From Minwuia thermotolerans (lineage in GTDB: Bacteria; Pseudomonadota; Alphaproteobacteria; Minwuiales; Minwuiaceae), in the NCBI RefSeq assembly GCF_002924445.1, contig NZ_PIGG01000010.1, forward strand, positions 62,001-126,000: a DNA stretch of 64,000 bases, written 5' to 3'. Shown here one piece after another: positions 37,702-47,251 of the stretch; position 1 is the first letter of the stretch; each line of letters opens with the position of its first letter. The translations under genes were made by a program, and so were the position numbers. The notes beneath the pieces were generated by a model that worked only from the letters and a program-made list of their open reading frames with translations, did no database searches and was not told the origin of the DNA.

Positions 37702-38487
37702 TCAAGCCAGTGAGGCCGAAAAGCGGCGGATGGCTGGCAGGACCGCCTCGGGGCGGTCGCGGTGCGGGCTGTGACCGCAGTCCGGCAGCAGCAGGGTCTC
37801 GACCGGACCGGCGACACCCCGGGCGATGCCGTCGACCTGCTTCTCCGTGCCGTACTCGTCGCCCTCCCCCTGGATGACCAGGCACGGCGCCTCGATTCGC
37901 GGCAGCAGGTCGACCAGGTTCCACTCGTCGAAGGCGCCGCTCAGCCAGGCATCGGCCCAGCCGCGGAAGGCGCAGTCGACATTGTCGCCGTGATGGCGGG
38001 CCAGCGCCTCGCGCAGCTTACCGCGTTCGTAAGCCTCGCGGGCCCTGGCGATGGATTCGATGCTGACCGTTTCGGCAAAGATGTGCGCGGCCATGGTGAC
38101 GAGGCCGACGAGACCGGACCGGGCCGCCAGCGCGGCGTAGGCGAGCGCGATGGAGCCGCCATCCGAATGACCGACCAGCAGGTGCGGGCCGATCTTCAGC
38201 GCCGAGAGCAGTTCCGGCAGCACTGTCCGGCCCTCGTCATGCATGTAGCTGATGGGCCGGGGTAATCGGCACGGGGCCGAGCGGCCGTAGCCATAGCGGC
38301 TGTAGGCCAGCACGCGTAGGTCCAGCGCCGCGGCGAGGCGATCGGGAAAATCGCGCCAGAGGTCGACGCAGCCAAGACCCTCATGCAGCAACACCACCAC
38401 CGGTTCGTCGGCGCCGGAGACCGGCCGCCCGTACCAGCGGTACTCGATCCGGCCGCCGGCCAGTTCCACGAAATCGGACCCGGCCAA
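37702..38487 (-). CDS. Alpha/beta hydrolase
   Basis: The 261-residue protein has the hydrolase nucleophile elbow GHSDG, an oxyanion region VVLLHEGLGCVDLW and the catalytic histidine in PDCGHSPHRDRP; the acid is probably in QGEGDEYGT. There is no signal peptide. It lies six bases after the benzoate-CoA ligase gene in the same leftward operon, so it may act as a thioesterase, lactonase or ester hydrolase that supplies or rescues aromatic acids, but the substrate is unknown. Confidence 0.82.
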   Translation of the reverse strand: MAGSDFVELAGGRIEYRWYGRPVSGADEPVVVLLHEGLGCVDLWRDFPDRLAAALDLRVLAYSRYGYGRSAPCRLPRPISYMHDEGRTVLPELLSALKIGPHLLVGHSDGGSIALAYAALAARSGLVGLVTMAAHIFAETVSIESIARAREAYERGKLREALARHHGDNVDCAFRGWADAWLSGAFDEWNLVDLLPRIEAPCLVIQGEGDEYGTEKQVDGIARGVAGPVETLLLPDCGHSPHRDRPEAVLPAIRRFSASLA

Positions 38488-38493
38488 GACCCG

Positions 38494-40083
38494 TCAGTCC
38501 CTCAGCTTGAAACGCTGCGTCTTGCCGGTCGCGGTCTTCGGCAGTTCATCGACGAAGTTGATCCAGCGCGGATACTTGTACTTCGCCAGCCGGTCCTTCA
38601 CGAAGCCCTGCAGTTCCCCGGCCAGCGCGTCATCGCCGGTGCGGCCCTCCGCCAGGGTCACGAACGCCTCCGGCTTGACCAGGCCATCATGGTCCGCGCG
38701 GCCGACCACGGCGGCTTCCAGTACGGCCTCATGCTCGCCCAGGGCCGATTCCACCTCGAAGGGCGAGACCCAGATTCCACCGACCTTGAGCATGTCGTCG
38801 GACCGCCCCTGGTAGACATAGCAGCCGTTCTCGTCGATCAGGTACTTGTCGCCGGTCCGGGTCCACGGCCCGTGGAAGGTCTCCAGGCTCCTCGCCCGGT
38901 TGTTCCAGTAGGCCACGGCTGAGGACGGCCCGCTGATCCACAGATCGCCGATCTCGCCCTGCGGCACGGCCTGACCGTCTTCGGTGGTCAGCTTCGCCTC
39001 GTAGCCGGGCACCGGCTTGCCTGTCGTGCCGTAGCGGACCTCGCCGGGACGGTTGGACAGGAAGATATGCAGCATTTCCGTGGAGCCGATGCCGTCGATG
39101 ATGTCGACGCCGAATCGCTGCCGCCAGCGTTCGCCGACATCCCGCGGCAGGGCCTCCCCGGCGGAAACGCAGAGACGCAGGTCCGCATCTTCCCGTGCCG
39201 GCTTGAGCGCCGGATCGGCCAGCATGCCGGCGTAGAGCGTCGGCACCGCGTAGAACACGGTCGGATTGTGGTCGTTCAGGCGCTTCAGGACGCTTTCCGG
39301 CGTTGGCCGTTCCGCCATCAGCACCGCCTTGCCGCCGACATAGAGCGGAAACGTCATCGCATTGCCCAGCCCGTAGGCAAAGAACAGCTTGGCGGCAGAG
39401 AACACGGTGTCGTTCTGGCTCAGTCCGAGGATCTGCTGGCCATAGAGGACCGCTGTATTGACCATGTCGGAGTGGATGTGGACCGCGCCCTTCGGCCGGC
39501 CCGTCGAGCCGGAGCTGTAGAGCCAGAAGCAGGTTTCGTCCGCCAGGGTCTCCGCCGGCGCGAGATCGGCGTCGGCGCGGGCCATGAGGTCGGCAAGCCG
39601 CGGCCGCCCCCCGGCCGCCTCGCCGGAGACGACGACGTCCCGCACGAAGGGCTGATCTTCCAGCGCGCTTTCGATGACGGGATAGAGGGCGTCGGAGACG
39701 AAGACCGCCCTGGCCCGCGAATCCCTGAGCATGTAGGCGTAATCGTCGGCCGTCAGCAGCGTGTTGACGGGCACGGGCACGATGCCGGCCTTGATCGCGC
39801 CGAAGAACAGCGCCGGGAAATCGATGGTGTCCAGCATCACCATCATGATGCGGTCCTCGGGCTGCAGCCCCAGCGCCTTCAGCGCATTGCCCGCGCGGTT
39901 CACGCGCCGGGCAAGCTCGCCATAGGTGACCTGTTCGCGGTCGTCGATGAAGGCGACCCGCTCGCCGCGGCCCTCGGCGATGTGACGGTCGATGAAGTCG
40001 GCCGCGGCGTTGTAGGCCCGCGGGACCCGGATCTCAGGCGGGCTGGCGCCCCAGTCGACCTCGGTGAAGCGCGAAAGGTTCAT
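38494..40083 (-). CDS. bclA: Benzoate-CoA ligase family protein
   Basis: The 529-residue AMP-forming ligase has the adenylation motif WLYSSGSTGRPKGAVH, the aromatic-acid pocket region AAKLFFAYGLGNAMTFPL, GSTEMLHIFLSN, the YKYPR hinge, and the C-terminal lysine in LPKTATGKTQRFKLR. These match benzoate/4-hydroxybenzoate-CoA ligases. It should activate benzoate or a near analogue for the box pathway. It is transcribed with the flavodoxin gene 12 bases upstream, away from boxR. Confidence 0.93.
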   Translation of the reverse strand: MNLSRFTEVDWGASPPEIRVPRAYNAAADFIDRHIAEGRGERVAFIDDREQVTYGELARRVNRAGNALKALGLQPEDRIMMVMLDTIDFPALFFGAIKAGIVPVPVNTLLTADDYAYMLRDSRARAVFVSDALYPVIESALEDQPFVRDVVVSGEAAGGRPRLADLMARADADLAPAETLADETCFWLYSSGSTGRPKGAVHIHSDMVNTAVLYGQQILGLSQNDTVFSAAKLFFAYGLGNAMTFPLYVGGKAVLMAERPTPESVLKRLNDHNPTVFYAVPTLYAGMLADPALKPAREDADLRLCVSAGEALPRDVGERWRQRFGVDIIDGIGSTEMLHIFLSNRPGEVRYGTTGKPVPGYEAKLTTEDGQAVPQGEIGDLWISGPSSAVAYWNNRARSLETFHGPWTRTGDKYLIDENGCYVYQGRSDDMLKVGGIWVSPFEVESALGEHEAVLEAAVVGRADHDGLVKPEAFVTLAEGRTGDDALAGELQGFVKDRLAKYKYPRWINFVDELPKTATGKTQRFKLRD

Positions 40084-40095
40084 GTGATCCCCCCA

Positions 40096-40575
40096 TCATG
40101 CGGCCTCCTGGCTGCGGTTCAGTTCCCCCAGCCATTGCCTGACCCATTCGACGCCTGCATCTTCCGGCAGGTCGCCGCCGCTGGCATTGTGTGCGAAGCG
40201 TTCGCCGATCTGGCGCGCGCCGCGTTCCCGCAACACCTTCTCGAACCGTTTGCCGCCGTGGTTGAACGTGTCGGCGTAGGTCGAATCGCCCAGGCCGAAG
40301 ACGCCGAAGCGGATGCCGCTCAGGTCCGGCGCCTTCTCTTCCAGGGCCTCGTAGAAATCGAGCGCGTTGTCTGGCACGTCGCCCTGACCGTAGGTGGACG
40401 TGACGATCAGATAGACGGCCTCGACGTCGTCAAAGACCGTCTCGTCCAGATCGTCCATCAGCAGGATTTCGGTCTCCCGCTCGGTTTCGGCCTCGATCGC
40501 CGCCTGCATGTCCTCGGCGACCATTTCGGCCGTGCCGGTCATGGTGCCGACGAGTATCTTGATCGGATCGGCCAT
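40096..40575 (-). CDS. Flavodoxin / MioC-like FMN protein
   Basis: The 159-residue protein is a free-standing flavodoxin domain like that of CysJ-type reductases: phosphate loop GTMTGTAEMVAEDM, the first FMN loop TSTYGQGDVPDNA and the second FGLGDSTYADTF. It lacks any NADPH-binding domain. It is the first gene of the leftward operon with bclA and sits under a putative BoxR site overlapping a perfect TATAAT. Since no boxA is present, this protein may take part in electron delivery to BoxB; that is inference. Confidence 0.85.
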   Translation of the reverse strand: MADPIKILVGTMTGTAEMVAEDMQAAIEAETERETEILLMDDLDETVFDDVEAVYLIVTSTYGQGDVPDNALDFYEALEEKAPDLSGIRFGVFGLGDSTYADTFNHGGKRFEKVLRERGARQIGERFAHNASGGDLPEDAGVEWVRQWLGELNRSQEAA

Positions 40576-40650
40576 GGGTCCACGCTCCCAGTTGCGGTTC
40601 CGCCGCGCGCCCGCCCCTATAGCCCATAAGCGGATGCGCCGCCAGATCAA

Positions 40651-40665
40651 ATGCATTATACTGCA
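40651..40665. promoter_or_regulatory. Putative BoxR operator between boxR and the flavodoxin gene
   Basis: ATGCATTATACTGCA has the form TGCA-N6-TGCA. On the minus strand it contains a perfect TATAAT -10 (40660-40655) for the flavodoxin-bclA operon, and on the plus strand TATACT (40657-40662) for boxR. It differs by one base over 15 from the site upstream of boxC (42494-42508), so both are probably bound by BoxR. Confidence 0.7.
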
Positions 40666-40668
40666 GGC

Positions 40669-41559
40669 ATGACAATGCGCGAGCCGCCTGCCCGAGACCA
40701 GATGGATCCGACCGCCGCCTTTCTCCAGGGGGTCGGCACACGGGTGCGCGATGCACGCGCCCGTCACGGCATGACGCGCAGGGATCTCGCCAAGCATTCC
40801 GGGGTCTCTGAGCGGCATCTGGCCCAGCTCGAGGCGGGCAAGGGCAACATCTCGATCGTCCTGCTGCGGCAGGTCGCCGGCGCACTGGCGACGCCGCTGT
40901 CGGAACTGCTCGACGACGGCCCCGACCGCTCGCCCGATCACAGGTTGCTCGCCGGTATGCTGGACCAGTTGGGGGCGGATCAGATCGCCGAGGCGCGCCG
41001 GCTGCTGGAACAGCGCTTCGTGCGCAGCAGCGAGCGCAATGGCCGTCTCGCGCTGATCGGATTGCGCGGCGCCGGCAAGTCGACCGTCGGCCGGCTGGTC
41101 GCGGCGCGGCGCGGCAGCGAATTCGTCGAACTGGCCGAAGAAGTCGAACGGGTCGCCGGGCTCGGTCTGGACGAGATATTCGAGTTTTCCGGGCAGGCCG
41201 GCTATCGCCGTTTCGAAGGCGAGGCGCTGCGGCGTCTGCTCGGCGACCGCCGGCAGGCCGTGCTGGCGACGGGCGGCGGCATCGTCTCCAACCCGGCAAC
41301 GTTCCAGATGTTGCTGGGCGGCTGCTTCACGATCTGGCTGCGGGCCGACCCGCAGGCGCACATGGCGCGGGTCGTGGCCCAGGGCGACCAGCGGCCGATG
41401 GCCGGCAACCGGCAGGCGATGGAGGATCTGGAGCGCATCCTGCGGAACCGGGAAGCGCTCTATGCGCAGGCGGACGCGGTCGTCGACACCTCCGGATTGG
41501 CCCCCGATGCGGTGGCCGAACGCGTCCTGCGCTGCTGGCCCGCTGTCCGGGCCGCATGA
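40669..41559 (+). CDS. boxR: BoxR/BzdR-type benzoyl-CoA-responsive regulator
   Basis: The protein (296 residues) fuses an N-terminal Xre-type helix-turn-helix (MTRRDLAKHSGVSERHLAQL, about residues 36-55) to a shikimate-kinase-like C-terminal domain with Walker A GLRGAGKST and TGGGIVSN. This fusion is diagnostic of BzdR/BoxR repressors, which bind benzoyl-CoA in the kinase-like domain. Starts at 40651, 40675 and 40702 are also in frame; 40651 lies within the operator. With TATACT at 40657 the message could be leaderless at 40669. It controls the box genes around it. Confidence 0.92.
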   Translation: MTMREPPARDQMDPTAAFLQGVGTRVRDARARHGMTRRDLAKHSGVSERHLAQLEAGKGNISIVLLRQVAGALATPLSELLDDGPDRSPDHRLLAGMLDQLGADQIAEARRLLEQRFVRSSERNGRLALIGLRGAGKSTVGRLVAARRGSEFVELAEEVERVAGLGLDEIFEFSGQAGYRRFEGEALRRLLGDRRQAVLATGGGIVSNPATFQMLLGGCFTIWLRADPQAHMARVVAQGDQRPMAGNRQAMEDLERILRNREALYAQADAVVDTSGLAPDAVAERVLRCWPAVRAA

Positions 41560-41918
41560 GCGGCTGGCCGTCAAGTGACCGTCGTCGCAAATTGCAATGT
41601 ATGATGTTCGGCCGCAGTGCCGCATTGAGACGTATCGACAAAATCGGACACGGAATGCGACCAGGCGGCATCCGGTCGGCCGGGGCGCCTGAGGCAAATC
41701 CGACGCGAACTTCCGGGACGTATGAATCAAGGCTTGGTTGTTGGTTCGGATTCTCGACATGAAGGCTTCGGTCAACCGGCAGCAGGTGCGGGTAATCCGT
41801 ATTGGCCCGTGATTTGCTTGTACTGCACGCGAAAGCGCACGAAGAGGGTTGCGTCAGGTTCCATTTCGTACGGACCAGTTTGTTGCGTATCGGAATCCCG
41901 GGAAGGAAGGATCGAGAC
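41560..41918. other. Intergenic region without a gene
   Basis: The 359 bases between boxR and the SEL1-like gene contain no open frame I would defend and no strong hairpin. They include short AT-richer patches (aaattgcaatgtatgatg near 41588 and ttgcttgtactgcacg near 41814) that may hold the promoter of the SEL1 gene, and a GANTC site (GATTC) near 41753. Confidence 0.5.
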
Positions 41919-42404
41919 ATGTTCATCAGGACGGCCATTACCTCCATCTCCATGCTGGTCGCGCTTGGCGTCGGAACGGCGCAGGCGGGCCTCAAGGAGG
42001 CGGAACAGCTCTATGCCGCCGGCGATCACAAGGCCGCGTTGCAGGAATATGTGAACACCGGCGGGCAGGGTGACGTGGAAGCCACGTTCCGCGCCGCGCA
42101 GATGTTCGAGCGCGGCGAGGGCACCGGCGAGCCCCGCCTCGACAAGGCCGCCGCGTGGTACCAGACCGCCGCGCGCGCCGGGCATCTGACCGCGCTGAAG
42201 TCGCTGGCGGAGATGTTCGCCGCGGGACGCGGCGTCGACGAGGACAAGGTTCAGGCGTACGCGCTGCTTGAGATCGCGGCGCAGAAGGGCGACTCCGAGG
42301 CTGCGGAGGTGCGCGACAAGCTGAGCGCCGACCTGCGCCCCGGCCAGGTCGCCGCGGGCCAGCGCCGGGCCGAGAAGCTGGCGCCCAAGTACGAAGGCTC
42401 CTGA
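41919..42404 (+). CDS. Small SEL1-repeat exported protein
   Basis: The 161-residue protein has a signal peptide (residues 1-23, ending GTAQA) and two to three SEL1/TPR-like repeats, such as AAAWYQTAARAGHLTALKSL and AYALLEIAAQKGDSEAAE. The C-terminal part is charged. The start at 41919 follows a gggaaggaagg ribosome-binding site. It lies between boxR and boxC but looks like an envelope protein rather than a benzoate enzyme. A strong hairpin follows its stop. Confidence 0.8.
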   Translation: MFIRTAITSISMLVALGVGTAQAGLKEAEQLYAAGDHKAALQEYVNTGGQGDVEATFRAAQMFERGEGTGEPRLDKAAAWYQTAARAGHLTALKSLAEMFAAGRGVDEDKVQAYALLEIAAQKGDSEAAEVRDKLSADLRPGQVAAGQRRAEKLAPKYEGS

Positions 42405-42435
42405 ACCGACCCGACCACCGATTCCGATAGCTTGG

Positions 42436-42466
42436 GAGACGCCCGCCGGCACATGGCGGGCGTCTC
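42436..42466 (+). terminator. Strong hairpin after the small SEL1 gene
   Basis: GAGACGCCCGCC (42436-42447) and GGCGGGCGTCTC (42455-42466) form a perfect twelve-base stem around a seven-base loop, 32 bases past the stop. It is followed by TCATTTC rather than a T-run, but it probably insulates the boxC promoter that begins 11 bases later. Confidence 0.65.
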
Positions 42467-42476
42467 TCATTTCGGG

Positions 42477-42509
42477 TTGTTGGCTCTTCTTGCATGCATT
42501 ATAGTGCAT
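42477..42509 (+). promoter_or_regulatory. boxC promoter with overlapping BoxR operator
   Basis: TTGTTG (42477-42482), 17 bases, then TATAGT (42500-42505) make a plausible sigma-70 promoter. The inverted repeat ATGCA-TTATAG-TGCAT (42494-42509) covers its -10 element and matches the site at 40651. A repressor bound here would block transcription of boxC-boxB; benzoyl-CoA would relieve it. Confidence 0.7.
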
Positions 42510-42537: not shown

Positions 42538-44187
42538 ATGATCGACTTCGAGAGACATCCCGACAGCTACCGCCACTGGCGCCTGGACATCGACGGCGAG
42601 ATCGCCTGGGTGCGCATGGACGTCGATGAAAAGGGCGGGCTGCGCGACGACGTCGAGCTGAAGCTCAACTCCTACGATCTCAGCGTCGATATCGAACTAT
42701 ACGACTGCATTCAGCGTCTGCGTTTCGAGCACCCCGAAGTCCGGGCCGTGATCCTGACCTCGGCCCATGACCGGGTGTTCTGCGCCGGCGCCAATATCCG
42801 CATGCTGGCCAGCGCGACGCACAGCCACAAGGTCAACTTCTGCAAGTTCACCAACGAGACGCGTCTGTACATGGAGGACGCGACGGAGAATTCGGGCCAG
42901 CGCTACATCTGCGCGGTGACCGGCTCCTGCGCCGGGGGCGGCTATGAACTGGCGCTGGCCTGTGACTGGATCATGCTGGCCGACGACGGCTCTTCCTCGG
43001 TGTCCCTGCCCGAGGTGCCGCTGCTGGCGGTGCTGCCCGGCACCGGCGGACTGACGCGACTGGTCGACAAGCGCCGGGTGCGCCGCGACCGGGCCGACTT
43101 CTTCTGCACCACCGAGGAAGGCGTCCGGGGCAAGCGCGCTGTCGACTGGAAGCTGGTCGACGAGACCGTGCCGCGCAGCAAGCTGATGGAAGCCGCGGAG
43201 AAGCGCGCGCACGAATTCGCCGCCGCTTCCGACCGGCCCGCGGACGCCAAGGGCGTCGAGCTCACGCCGCTGGGACGGAAGATCGACGGCGACGTCATCC
43301 GCTACACCACCGTCCGCGTCGAGATCGACCGGGAAGCCCGCGCCGCCGAGATCACGGTGCGGGGTCCGCAGGCCGACGCGCCGGCGGACGCCGCGGCCGC
43401 CGAAAGGGAGGGCGCGGGCTTCTGGCCGTTGCGTCTGGCCAGGGAACTGGACGACGCCATCCTGCATCTGCGCATCAACGAGGAAACCATCGGCGCCTGG
43501 GTGTTCCGCACCGAGGGCGACGGCGAACGCGTGGCCGGCCACGACGCGCTGCTGGCCGGCAACATGGACAACTGGTTCATCCGCGAGGTCGCGCTCTATC
43601 TGCGCCGGGTGCTGAAGCGCGTCGACGTCTCGGCGCGGTCGCTGTTCGCCTTCATCGAGCCCGGGAGCTGTTTCACCGGCGTCCTGCTGGAACTCGCCCT
43701 GGCCGCCGACCGCTCCTACATGCTCGACGGCCAGTTCGAAGGCGACAACCGGCCGCCGGCGGCCCTGAGGCTGACCGTCGCCAACCGCGGGGCCTATCCG
43801 ATGGGCAACGGACTCACGCGCCTGCAGAGCCGTTTCCTCGGCGATGAGGCGGCGCTCGCCGCTGCGCTGGAACGCGACGGCGAAGACGTGGAGGCATTGG
43901 AAGCCGAGGAACTCGGCCTCGTCACCTTCGCGCCCGACGACATCGACTGGGAAGACGAGGTCCGCATCGCGCTGGAGGAGCGCGCCGCATTCTCGCCGGA
44001 CGCGCTGACGGGCATGGAGGCGTCGCTCCGCTTCGCCGGTCCCGAGACCCTGGAAACCAAGATCTTCGCCCGCCTCTCCGCCTGGCAGAACTGGATATTC
44101 CAGCGCCCCAACGCCACCGGCGAGAAGGGCGCGCTGCCACTCTACGGCTCCGGCGAGCGCACCGAATTCGACCAGAGGAGAGCCTGA
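42538..44187 (+). CDS. boxC: 2,3-epoxybenzoyl-CoA dihydrolase BoxC
   Basis: The 549-residue protein is two crotonase-like halves, the size and layout of BoxC. The first half has VILTSAHDRVFCAGANIRML and TGSCAGGGYELALACDWIML (split), with oxyanion-hole glycines; the second half includes FIEPGSCFTGVLLELALAADR (split). BoxC hydrolytically opens the epoxidised ring, releasing formate and 3,4-dehydroadipyl-CoA semialdehyde. The ATG at 42538 follows an agggagag ribosome-binding site. Its stop overlaps the boxB ATG by one base. Confidence 0.94.
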   Translation: MIDFERHPDSYRHWRLDIDGEIAWVRMDVDEKGGLRDDVELKLNSYDLSVDIELYDCIQRLRFEHPEVRAVILTSAHDRVFCAGANIRMLASATHSHKVNFCKFTNETRLYMEDATENSGQRYICAVTGSCAGGGYELALACDWIMLADDGSSSVSLPEVPLLAVLPGTGGLTRLVDKRRVRRDRADFFCTTEEGVRGKRAVDWKLVDETVPRSKLMEAAEKRAHEFAAASDRPADAKGVELTPLGRKIDGDVIRYTTVRVEIDREARAAEITVRGPQADAPADAAAAEREGAGFWPLRLARELDDAILHLRINEETIGAWVFRTEGDGERVAGHDALLAGNMDNWFIREVALYLRRVLKRVDVSARSLFAFIEPGSCFTGVLLELALAADRSYMLDGQFEGDNRPPAALRLTVANRGAYPMGNGLTRLQSRFLGDEAALAAALERDGEDVEALEAEELGLVTFAPDDIDWEDEVRIALEERAAFSPDALTGMEASLRFAGPETLETKIFARLSAWQNWIFQRPNATGEKGALPLYGSGERTEFDQRRA

Positions 44188-45602
44188 TGGCGATCGACTA
44201 CGTCAACAAGATCCCGAACAATGTCGACCTGTCCGACAATCGCCGCCTGCAGCGCGCGCTTGAGGCCTGGCAGCCGAACTTCCTGAGCTGGTGGGACGAC
44301 ATCGGTCCCCTGGGATTTCAGCAGAAGGACGTCTACCTGCGCACCGCGACCTCGGTCGACGCCAAGGGCTGGGCCCATTTCGACTATGTGAAGATGCCGG
44401 ACTACCGCTGGGGCATCTTCCTGGCCGACCGCAATCCCGACCGGCAGATCAATTTCGGCGACCACAAGGGCGAGCCCGCCTGGCAGGAAGTCCCGGGGGA
44501 GTACCGCGGCGTGCTGCGCCGTCTGATCGTCACCCAGGGCGACACCGAGCCCGCTTCCGTCGAACAGCAGCGCCTGCTGGGCGCAACCGCGCCGTCGCTC
44601 TATGACCTGCGCAATCTCTTCCAGGTCAATGTCGAGGAAGGCCGGCACCTTTGGGCCATGGTCTACCTGCTGCACGCCCATTTCGGCCGCGACGGCCGCG
44701 AGGAGGCCGAGGCCCTGCTGGAGCGCCGCTCTGGCGACGAGGACAAGCCGCGCATCCTGGGCGCCTTCAACGAGAAGACGCCGGACTGGCTCAGTTTCTT
44801 CATGTTCACCTACTTCACCGACCGCGACGGCAAGTACCAGCTCGCCAGCCTGGCGGAGTCCGGCTTCGATCCGCTCTCGCGCACCTGCCGCTTCATGCTG
44901 ACCGAGGAAGCCCATCACATGTTCGTCGGCGAGACCGGCATCGGCCGCGTCATCGACCGCACGCTGGAGCTGATGAAGGAGCACGACACCGACGACGTCA
45001 GCCCCTTCGGCGGCGTGAATCTCCCGCTGCTGCAGAAATACCTGAACTTCCACTTCTCGGTATCGGTGGATCTGTTCGGTTCGGAACTCTCCACCAACGC
45101 CGCGAACTACTACACGATGGGCCTCAAGGGCCGGTTCGAGGAAACGCGGAAGGACGACGACCACCTGCTGAAGGACGCCAGCCACGAGGTCATGCACCTG
45201 GAGGACGGCCGCTTCGTCATGCGCGACGATCCCGCGCTTCAGGCACTCAACGAGGCGCTCCGCGACGACTACGTCCTCGATTGCCAGCGCGGCGTGGACC
45301 GCTGGAACAAGGCGATCGCCAAGGCGGGCGTCGACTTCCGGCTGAAGCTGCCGCACCGGGCCTTCCATCGCCAGATCGGGCAGTTCGCCAGCATCCACTG
45401 CACGCCGGAAGGCAAGCTGATTCCGACGGAAGAGTGGAATGCGCGCTGCCATGAATGGCTGCCGACCGACGAGGATCAGAAGTACGTCGAATCGCTGATG
45501 AAACCGGTCTACGAGCCCGGAAAGTTCGCCGCCTGGATCGCGCCGCCGCGCCGCGGCATCAACGGCCGGCCCATAGACTTCGAGTATGTCCGCTTCAACT
45601 AG
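44187..45602 (+). CDS. boxB: Benzoyl-CoA 2,3-epoxidase subunit BoxB
   Basis: The 471-residue protein is the diiron monooxygenase of aerobic benzoyl-CoA degradation. Ferritin-like iron ligands are visible as E-x-x-H motifs at about 151-154 (VEEGRHLWAM) and 240-244 (EEAHHMFVGE). It epoxidises benzoyl-CoA at C2-C3 and needs electrons from a reductase, normally BoxA, which is not in this window. Translation is coupled to boxC. Its TAG stop shares the CTAG at 45599-45602 with the convergent kinase gene. Confidence 0.95.
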   Translation: MAIDYVNKIPNNVDLSDNRRLQRALEAWQPNFLSWWDDIGPLGFQQKDVYLRTATSVDAKGWAHFDYVKMPDYRWGIFLADRNPDRQINFGDHKGEPAWQEVPGEYRGVLRRLIVTQGDTEPASVEQQRLLGATAPSLYDLRNLFQVNVEEGRHLWAMVYLLHAHFGRDGREEAEALLERRSGDEDKPRILGAFNEKTPDWLSFFMFTYFTDRDGKYQLASLAESGFDPLSRTCRFMLTEEAHHMFVGETGIGRVIDRTLELMKEHDTDDVSPFGGVNLPLLQKYLNFHFSVSVDLFGSELSTNAANYYTMGLKGRFEETRKDDDHLLKDASHEVMHLEDGRFVMRDDPALQALNEALRDDYVLDCQRGVDRWNKAIAKAGVDFRLKLPHRAFHRQIGQFASIHCTPEGKLIPTEEWNARCHEWLPTDEDQKYVESLMKPVYEPGKFAAWIAPPRRGINGRPIDFEYVRFN

Positions 45603-47251
45603 CTGACGGACCGCCGTCCGCGCCGGGTCCGCGTCTCGCCTCCTTCGGCTGCGTGACCGATGATGCAGTCGGGCGGAAAGGTCACGCGCGCCGTCAACCC
45701 CTTGCCCGGCGCGCTGTCGATCCAGATCGAGCCGCCATGCATGGCGGCCAGTTCACGCGCGATGGGCAGACCGAGACCGATGCCGTCGACATTGGCGAAA
45801 CGCGGGTCGCCGGCCCGCTCGAAGGGCTGCAGTAGCCGGCGGAGTTCGGCCTTCGCGATGCCGACGCCATCGTCGGCGATGATCACGCCCGCTTCCATCG
45901 CATCGCCGAAGATGCGGATCGAGACAATGGCGCGCGGCCCGGCGTACTGCACCGCGTTGGCGACCAGATTGCCGACGATCTGGCGGAATGCGCGCCGGTC
46001 AACGCTGAGCACCGGCGCCGCCGAGGCGGGTTCGACGCGCACGAACACCCCGTGCTCCGAGGCCACAGGCTCGTAGAGGCCGACCACGCGACGCACCTCC
46101 TGATCCAGATTGACCGCCTCGCGGCGCAGTTCCATCGCGCCCGACTCGATCTCGGAGAAGCCGATCAGGTTTTCGACGATGCTCATCAGCCGCTCGCCGC
46201 TCAGCTTGATGTCGCGCGCATAATCCAGGTATTTCGGGTTGTTCATCGGCCCGAAAGCCTCGCTGCCCATCAGTTCGGAAAAGCCGATGATGGCGTTGAG
46301 CGGCGTGCGCAGTTCGTGGCTGACATTGGCCATGATGCGCGACTTGGCCTCGGAGGCCGCTTCGGCATGAATGCGCGCCTGGGCGAGCTGGCGATTGCGC
46401 TGGCGGGCATAATCGAGCGCGCGCCGCAGCCGACGCATCAGCACCAGAAAGACGGCGCAGATCGCGGCCAGACCGGCCAGCAGGGCCAGCATCGGCCAGA
46501 ATGTCGGATTGGACGGATCGATCACGCGGCTCAACGAAGGAAACAGCGGGGGCAGCGCGATACTGACCGCCTGAACGCCGCGCACGTCGCCGGCCTTCCA
46601 GTCGTCACGCGGCGAATCGGGATGGGTGTTGTGGCAGGCCGCACAGCCGGCGCCCATGACCACGGGCTCCGCGTGGCGCAGGCGCAGCCCGTCGCCATCA
46701 CGGACGACCCGGCTGAAAGCCGGCTCCCGGTTGTTCACCAGCCGCTCCAGCGCCTCCGCCTCGAAGGCGTTGCGCGGCCCGCCGTCATCCCGGTAGTCGA
46801 ACGGGTGACCACTGAAAAAGCGGAATTCGGCGGGACGGACCAGGTCGTTGATCCAGATTCCCAGTTCGATCGACATGGTCGCCGGCGTGGGAATCGCGCG
46901 TTCGCGCTGATGGTAATCGCGGGCAACTTCCAGACCGCCGATACGGGCCCGGGGCACGACCACGGAGGTGTAGTATTCGCGGACGGCGGTGAGGGTTGCC
47001 GAATAGGACCGTGCGCTCTCCAGCGCGGTACGGTAGCGCAGGTCGTCCAGCACCATCGCAGCGAGTACGGCGATCAGGCCCAGACCGGCGGCGGCAAAGA
47101 AGGCGACGGACACGACCGGCCGCCGCGCCATGGCGTCGATGACCTTGCGCGCCTGGTGCAGAATGCTCCGCCGTCCGTCCACGGATCTTCTCTTTGCAGG
47201 TTGTCCGGCTCCTGCCGAACCATGACCGGCCCGCGTTAAATTTGCGTTCAC
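45599..47251 (-). CDS. Membrane sensor histidine kinase with heme c-binding sensor domain
   Basis: The 550-residue kinase has a membrane helix at about 48-68, a periplasmic DUF3365/Tll0287-like sensor with a CAACH heme c motif (C203-C206-H207), a second helix near 255-275, then H-box MANVSHELRTPLNAIIGF, N-box and GIGLGLPIARELAAMHGG. It probably senses redox state or small ligands through a covalent heme. No response regulator is adjacent. The GTG at 47251 overlaps its ribosome-binding site (gggaggtg), so the true start may lie slightly downstream. It is convergent with boxB. Confidence 0.85.
   Translation of the reverse strand: MNANLTRAGHGSAGAGQPAKRRSVDGRRSILHQARKVIDAMARRPVVSVAFFAAAGLGLIAVLAAMVLDDLRYRTALESARSYSATLTAVREYYTSVVVPRARIGGLEVARDYHQRERAIPTPATMSIELGIWINDLVRPAEFRFFSGHPFDYRDDGGPRNAFEAEALERLVNNREPAFSRVVRDGDGLRLRHAEPVVMGAGCAACHNTHPDSPRDDWKAGDVRGVQAVSIALPPLFPSLSRVIDPSNPTFWPMLALLAGLAAICAVFLVLMRRLRRALDYARQRNRQLAQARIHAEAASEAKSRIMANVSHELRTPLNAIIGFSELMGSEAFGPMNNPKYLDYARDIKLSGERLMSIVENLIGFSEIESGAMELRREAVNLDQEVRRVVGLYEPVASEHGVFVRVEPASAAPVLSVDRRAFRQIVGNLVANAVQYAGPRAIVSIRIFGDAMEAGVIIADDGVGIAKAELRRLLQPFERAGDPRFANVDGIGLGLPIARELAAMHGGSIWIDSAPGKGLTARVTFPPDCIIGHAAEGGETRTRRGRRSVS

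Follow-up and report, generated by a model that had tools for sequence, protein, structure and literature searches.

The window, i.e., the entire 64-kb stretch of alphaproteobacterial DNA analyzed here, carries a gene cluster for the aerobic benzoyl-CoA (box) pathway in which two near-identical palindromes flank a regulatory gene, raising the question of whether these palindromes are the sites through which that regulator controls the pathway. The answer proposed here, to which we assign a probability of roughly 0.9, is that both palindromes would act as operators of the BoxR protein encoded between them, and that a third site on another contig (C61) would belong to the same regulon. This proposal is based on computed features, i.e., the sites as such, how rare they are, the extent to which they are conserved at boxR, at boxC and, inside the genus, at a transporter operon, and the domains of the regulator, from which we infer binding of BoxR and its release by benzoyl-CoA.

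The boxR gene (40669..41559, plus strand) encodes an XRE helix-turn-helix followed by a shikimate-kinase-like domain, and its product scores 372.5 bits against family NF006015 (cut-off 204). The Pfam domains HTH_3 (26-80) and SKI (133-288) provide the N-terminal XRE plus C-terminal SKI arrangement by which family membership was judged, and the gene has box neighbours on either side, being placed between flavodoxin-bclA and boxCB. The Walker-A motif is kept (GLRGAGKS), while the kinase aspartates present in the genome's own AroK (FVDADDEIE) are lost from the corresponding segment of BoxR (FVELAEEVE), in agreement with a kinase-dead sensor domain such as that described for BzdR, in which kinase activity is not detectable (PMC3602430). 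By its sequence, the regulator encoded between the two sites is of the BoxR/BzdR type, and a search of the genome returned no second full-length BoxR, the remaining hits being a shikimate kinase and some short helix-turn-helix segments.

The gene calls for boxR, flavodoxin, bclA, boxC and boxB all hold. Divergent from boxR on the minus strand are located a MioC-like flavodoxin gene (40096..40575), which is the first gene of the bclA operon and whose product is a candidate electron donor for BoxB, the benzoate-CoA ligase gene bclA (38494..40083; TIGR02262, 805 bits) and a gene for an alpha/beta hydrolase (37702..38487, start uncertain) that is a candidate for the lactonase of the box cluster. 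Downstream on the plus strand lie boxC (42538..44187; 2,3-epoxybenzoyl-CoA dihydrolase; TIGR03222, 915 bits), which is preceded by a Shine-Dalgarno-like AAGGGAG, and boxB (44187..45602; benzoyl-CoA 2,3-epoxidase; TIGR03225, 865 bits), both over their family cut-offs as expected of a box pathway. The cluster thus resembles known box pathways in possessing bclA, boxB, boxC and a lactonase-like gene, yet differs from them in that no BoxA is found at cut-off in this genome. A Sel1-repeat protein gene (41919..42404, plus strand), absent from the preliminary description of this DNA, separates boxR from boxC and, among the loci listed, does so only in those of this genus. A gene for a histidine kinase with a Tll0287-like domain (45599-47251, minus strand) is convergent with boxB.

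The 15-mer ATGCATTATA[C/G]TGCA is present at 40651-40665 and at 42494-42508, in each case within a 16-bp near-palindrome, and a check of the sequence bore out the preliminary description in that these two near-identical sites differ at a single base. Operator 1 (40651-40666; ATGCATTATACTGCAG), which, like operator 2, is not assigned to a strand, is located on the boxR promoter within the flavodoxin-boxR divergon and is found at the same place in relatives, while operator 2 (42494-42509; ATGCATTATAGTGCAT) is located on the boxC promoter and shows no mismatch to the symmetrised 16-mer ATGCAYTATARTGCAT. Both fit the published BoxR/BzdR operator consensus, the 16-bp palindrome ATGCACTATAGTGCAT, which goes back to footprinting and comparative work on Betaproteobacteria (PMC6449761) and by which operators were recognized here. 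At up to three mismatches the 15-mer returns four matches in the window (two places, both strands) against 0.56 expected, a number reached in none of 100 shuffles. The TGCA-N6-TGCA motif alone is not significantly enriched in the window (two places against 0.82 expected; 19 of 100 shuffles reach two) and was dropped as evidence in its own right; it follows that the AT core and the outer bases carry the signal. A plasmid search with the region (megablast) gave no matches.

In the 4.90-Mb genome, TGCA-N6-TGCA is found at 22 places, compared to ten for the reversed control. The exact 15-mer ATGCATTATASTGCA occurs at only two places, both of them the box sites, with one further place at up to two mismatches, and the symmetrised 16-mer at up to two mismatches occurs at three, i.e., the two box sites and C61:12053; allowing three mismatches increases this to five (reversed control: one). 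Wide occurrence of the 15-mer at unrelated loci, the outcome that the preliminary description had named as telling against its own proposal, was thus absent from the genome scan. That proposal, i.e., coordinated control through BoxR operators, is well supported by comparison as regards the sites at boxR/flavodoxin-bclA and boxCB, which are rare and conserved, but the TGCA-N6-TGCA motif on which it was built is too common by itself.

To rank the sites, a score matrix built from 108 sites of relatives, leaving out the window and its 98% relative (G006), was employed. Operator 2 scores 31.9 bits, operator 1 scores 23.9 and the C61 site 21.9, while the next best place in the window scores 4.8; the two remaining three-mismatch matches in the genome score 8.2 (C30) and 13.1 bits (C45), and twelve of the other TGCA-N6-TGCA places (L007-L018), each scored over its whole 3-kb locus, give 9.4 bits at most. 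No score of at least 23.8 occurred in 30 Mb of Markov null sequence of orders 1 and 3, and a score of 21.8 would arise by chance 0.16 times in 4.9 Mb. There is some circularity in the matrix, the training sites having been picked by similarity to the consensus (up to three mismatches); the bits therefore rank the sites and do not constitute independent proof, which is provided instead by where the sites lie in relatives.

According to the mechanism proposed, BoxR would sit on each site as a dimer and mask the -10 element (TATACT before boxR, TATAGT before boxC), shutting the promoter until benzoyl-CoA made by the ligase causes BoxR to let go. In this way boxR would regulate itself, flavodoxin-bclA would be controlled from the divergent side and boxCB would be expressed, while the C61 operator would, in trans, bring a branched-chain-type ABC transporter into the BoxR regulon. 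Repression and the role of benzoyl-CoA as inducer are, like the substrate of the transporter, inferred steps of this scheme. A compact regulon of this kind (boxR, flavodoxin-bclA, boxCB and the transporter) is testable with three short DNA fragments.

The third site (G000:C61:12053-12068, on an unlinked contig) is located upstream of an operon for a transporter of the branched-chain (LIV) type, comprising one periplasmic binding protein and two each of permeases and ATPases. In the preliminary description the two box sites were considered to define the regulon; both do stand in front of boxR/flavodoxin-bclA and boxCB, but the third, at C61, has to be added to them. The alternative, that the C61 match arose by chance or is unrelated and that the regulon does not extend beyond the box locus, is considered unlikely. 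The expectation of 0.16 per genome at this score speaks for it, as does the lack of a good site at the transporter orthologues of all three nearest genera (8.5 bits in G007, none in G008, 10.5 bits in G009). Against it, a site of 20.5-28.0 bits is found upstream of the orthologues in all seven genus genomes searched, and in five of these (G001-G005) it is paired with a second site of 12.6-17.7 bits at a centre spacing of 41-43 bp, although the seven are not independent cases, G000 and G006 being near-identical and G001-G003 probably close. The transporter and an adjoining gene of the benzoate-CoA-ligase family (TIGR02262, 398.6 bits, cut-off 375.25) furthermore fit the pathway. Among the genome's proteins, the C61 binding protein also gives the best hit to a box-linked binding protein from a Burkholderiales locus (1e-51, next 4e-17), and in G049 a 42% relative of this protein and a 54% relative of the adjoining ligase are encoded within 20 kb of boxR/boxBC. 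We retain the C61 site as part of the proposed BoxR regulon, with the transporter the likely benzoate importer. The two 39-40% transporter homologues of G015 have no site upstream. The transporter operon on C61 (L020:5348-14839) has ahead of it genes for a cupin, a second benzoate-CoA-ligase-family protein besides BclA, an OYE-type flavoenzyme, a MarR regulator and an SDR.

The Betaproteobacterial BoxR/BzdR regulons described by Suvorova and Gelfand 2019 (PMC6449761) share with the present one the regulator type, the 16-bp palindrome, the divergent boxR/bclA and boxC units, and a benzoate ABC transporter within the regulon. In contrast, the present regulon belongs to an alphaproteobacterium, has one operator per promoter, includes a flavodoxin in the bclA unit and resides in a genome without BoxA. 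Benzoate ABC transporters being already part of BoxR regulons (PMC6449761), what is added here is the unlinked arrangement of the transporter. The predicted switch is an ordinary one of published kind and is well supported by comparison; what is gained is its presence in a new lineage, that of an alphaproteobacterium. A literature search found no paper joining Minwuia and benzoate.

Conservation was assessed in a locus set comprising the best 80 BoxR loci from a scan of the genome_contigs collection and 14 loci of relatives. Excluding the window and G006, the palindrome at up to two mismatches is present upstream of 36 of 90 boxR and 51 of 73 boxC genes, increasing to 58 of 90 and 57 of 73, respectively, at up to three. 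When 200 shuffled palindromes were run over the full sets of 92 boxR and 75 boxC regions, they matched on average 0.02 and 0.01 regions at up to two mismatches, and 0.23 and 0.24 at up to three, the largest counts at the latter setting being 10 for boxR (from patterns resembling the motif) and 13 for boxC. No site at up to three mismatches is present in 32 of the 92 boxR and 16 of the 75 boxC regions of the full sets. L025/L070 and L028/L081 are apparently the same stretches from two collections, both of which are included, where usable, in these counts and in those of promoter elements over boxC sites and boxR loci given below, while the non-redundant counts given below were obtained with a 10-mer filter. 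L028 and L081 are left out of the boxR counts (the match starts too late), as are three of the 78 loci with a boxC match from the boxC counts (start beyond residue 30, or too near the end).

These data also bear on the possibility that a different regulator, whether of XRE type or unrelated, uses the palindromes, with BoxR linked to them by proximity only, which we regard as very improbable. Among 60 kin genomes, sites with at most one mismatch are present in nine of the 14 that possess BoxR versus two of the 46 that do not (Fisher p 6e-6), and in numerous lineages boxR and boxC carry such a palindrome; moreover, footprinting and comparative work in Betaproteobacteria attributed the same consensus to BoxR/BzdR (PMC6449761). 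What favours another regulator are the two exceptions without a full-length BoxR, i.e., G047, with the exact 16-mer ATGCATTATAGTGCAT (G047:C1:2256866-2256881), and G023, with a one-mismatch copy, together with a 21.5-bit site in the near-identical G006 (L165:7443; G006:C1:1162442). The latter is located directly upstream of a parA-like gene and close to an integrase-like gene, both named from reading the translation; it is missing from the window's genome (G000), and was rejected as a regulon member and taken as chance or the site of another regulator.

Assignment of the palindromes to BoxR leaves their number per promoter to be considered. Of 43 non-redundant boxC promoters whose main site reaches at least 12 bits, 35 possess a second site of at least 8 bits at a distance of 27-54 bp, and a second site is present at 25 of 63 non-redundant boxR promoters, the chance of such a site being approximately 0.005 per region. 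BoxR/BzdR sites are described as "almost always multiple", usually three to five helical turns apart but not obligatorily so (PMC6449761). Neither window promoter has a second site of at least 8 bits within 20-80 bp, and the one weak place, of 3.6 bits at 40665, overlaps operator 1; weak accessory sites below the 8-bit limit may be present at the window promoters. The Minwuia relative L025 likewise has single sites at both promoters. The PN promoter of Azoarcus sp. CIB, controlled by BzdR, is similar to the system described here in its TGCA(N6)TGCA palindromes, its XRE/shikimate-kinase repressor and its operator at the promoter core, but differs in having three operator regions and in controlling anaerobic bzd genes (PMC6678401). 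At PN, OR1 is enough for repression, while benzoyl-CoA relieves it only with OR2 and OR3 in place (PMC6678401); with the matrix, nothing resembling OR2 or OR3 was found at either window promoter. The way in which a single operator lets BoxR go, given that the Azoarcus homologue depends on accessory ones, is thus a testable question.

As to the promoters, the preliminary description had each site overlap a -10 element, and both sequences, TATAAT (minus strand, 40660-40655) and TATAGT (42500-42505), are indeed present. For boxC, the TATAGT inside operator 2 is preceded, at 17 bp, by a -35 TTGTTG (42477..42482, plus strand); across 62 boxC sites a TTG is present at a spacer of 16, 17 or 18 bp in 15, 3 and 2 cases, respectively (20 of 62 in total), and at any other offset in at most three. 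For boxR, operator 1 contains the -10 TATACT (40657..40662, plus strand), with the first in-frame ATG beginning 6 nt later, at 40669. An ATG 5-8 nt past the -10 is present in 11 of 86 loci (at 7 nt in L025, L074 and L080), and a leaderless boxR mRNA is therefore probable in this group, not in general. The minus-strand TATAAT in operator 1 is the weaker candidate for the flavodoxin -10, having no recognisable -35 (CTCGCG at 17 bp), which amends the earlier description. A more likely flavodoxin-bclA promoter is located approximately 36 bp from the palindrome (40616..40644, minus strand), with TGGCGG (40644-40639) and TATAGG (40621-40616) separated by 17 bp. Since the TATAAT lacks a -35 and the flavodoxin side has its own candidate promoter, the -10 of the palindrome more likely serves boxR. 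The proposed flavodoxin-bclA promoter is overlapped by a decayed half-operator (TATAGCCCA; 40618-40626, plus strand); in relatives a half-operator ATATACTGCA or similar was seen by eye approximately 40 bp from the boxR palindrome on the flavodoxin side, and the matrix returned three second sites at -39 bp among their boxR promoters.

That the palindrome represents a strong promoter core only, i.e., a symmetric -10 acting in both directions with no operator role, would explain the TATAAT/TATAGT at its centre and the fitting -35 of boxC, but is the most improbable of the alternatives, as the outer TGCA arms, for which a -10 has no need, are conserved, positions 3 (G) and 14 (C) being invariant in the 108 sites (preselected at up to three mismatches), and the second copies at the boxC promoters are located where a -10 would be useless.

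BoxA is the reductase for BoxB, and no protein of the window's genome exceeds the BoxA cut-off (TIGR03224; best 34.6 bits against 459.2). Among the 14 kin genomes, BoxA is over cut-off in four (G001, G002, G003 and G049), none of which has the flavodoxin at the box locus, while the flavodoxin adjoins boxR in nine of the ten without BoxA, the tenth, G005, being cut by a contig end. In G001-G003, which are of the same genus and possess BoxA, the box cluster is arranged differently. A further 49 genomes, taken from 50 of the best 80 BoxR loci with L127 left out, comprise 13 with flavodoxin only, 18 with BoxA only, two with both and 16 with neither, at a flavodoxin limit of 1e-40 that was set after seeing a gap from 3e-41 to 1e-26 and that counts four weaker matches as absent. 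Fisher's test gives p 0.012 for these 49 genomes, and p 0.0006 after addition of nine of the 14 relatives (without near-duplicates and G005), both values ignoring kinship and incomplete assemblies. The operator-linked flavodoxin is thus found preferentially in genomes without BoxA; a strict rule of flavodoxin for BoxA is ruled out by the 16 genomes with neither and the two with both. Because of those 16, which include Bradyrhizobium isolates, other electron donors must exist.

No mention of a flavodoxin as BoxB donor was found in open PubMed Central papers. A tentative reading, which falls somewhat short of being probable, is that the box pathway has been rewired here, such that the MioC-like flavodoxin replaces BoxA as donor to BoxB and the single-operator promoters respond to benzoyl-CoA without accessory operators. 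Under this tentative reading the donor to BoxB would be an exchangeable module, either BoxA or flavodoxin, with a ferredoxin perhaps taking this part in some genomes, and the electron supply to BoxB where BoxA is missing becomes a testable question. In L096, whose genome lacks both BoxA and the flavodoxin, a Fer2 ferredoxin gene (L096:10032-10376) is located directly after boxB; the gene of similar size in L135, also from a genome with neither, has no Pfam match.
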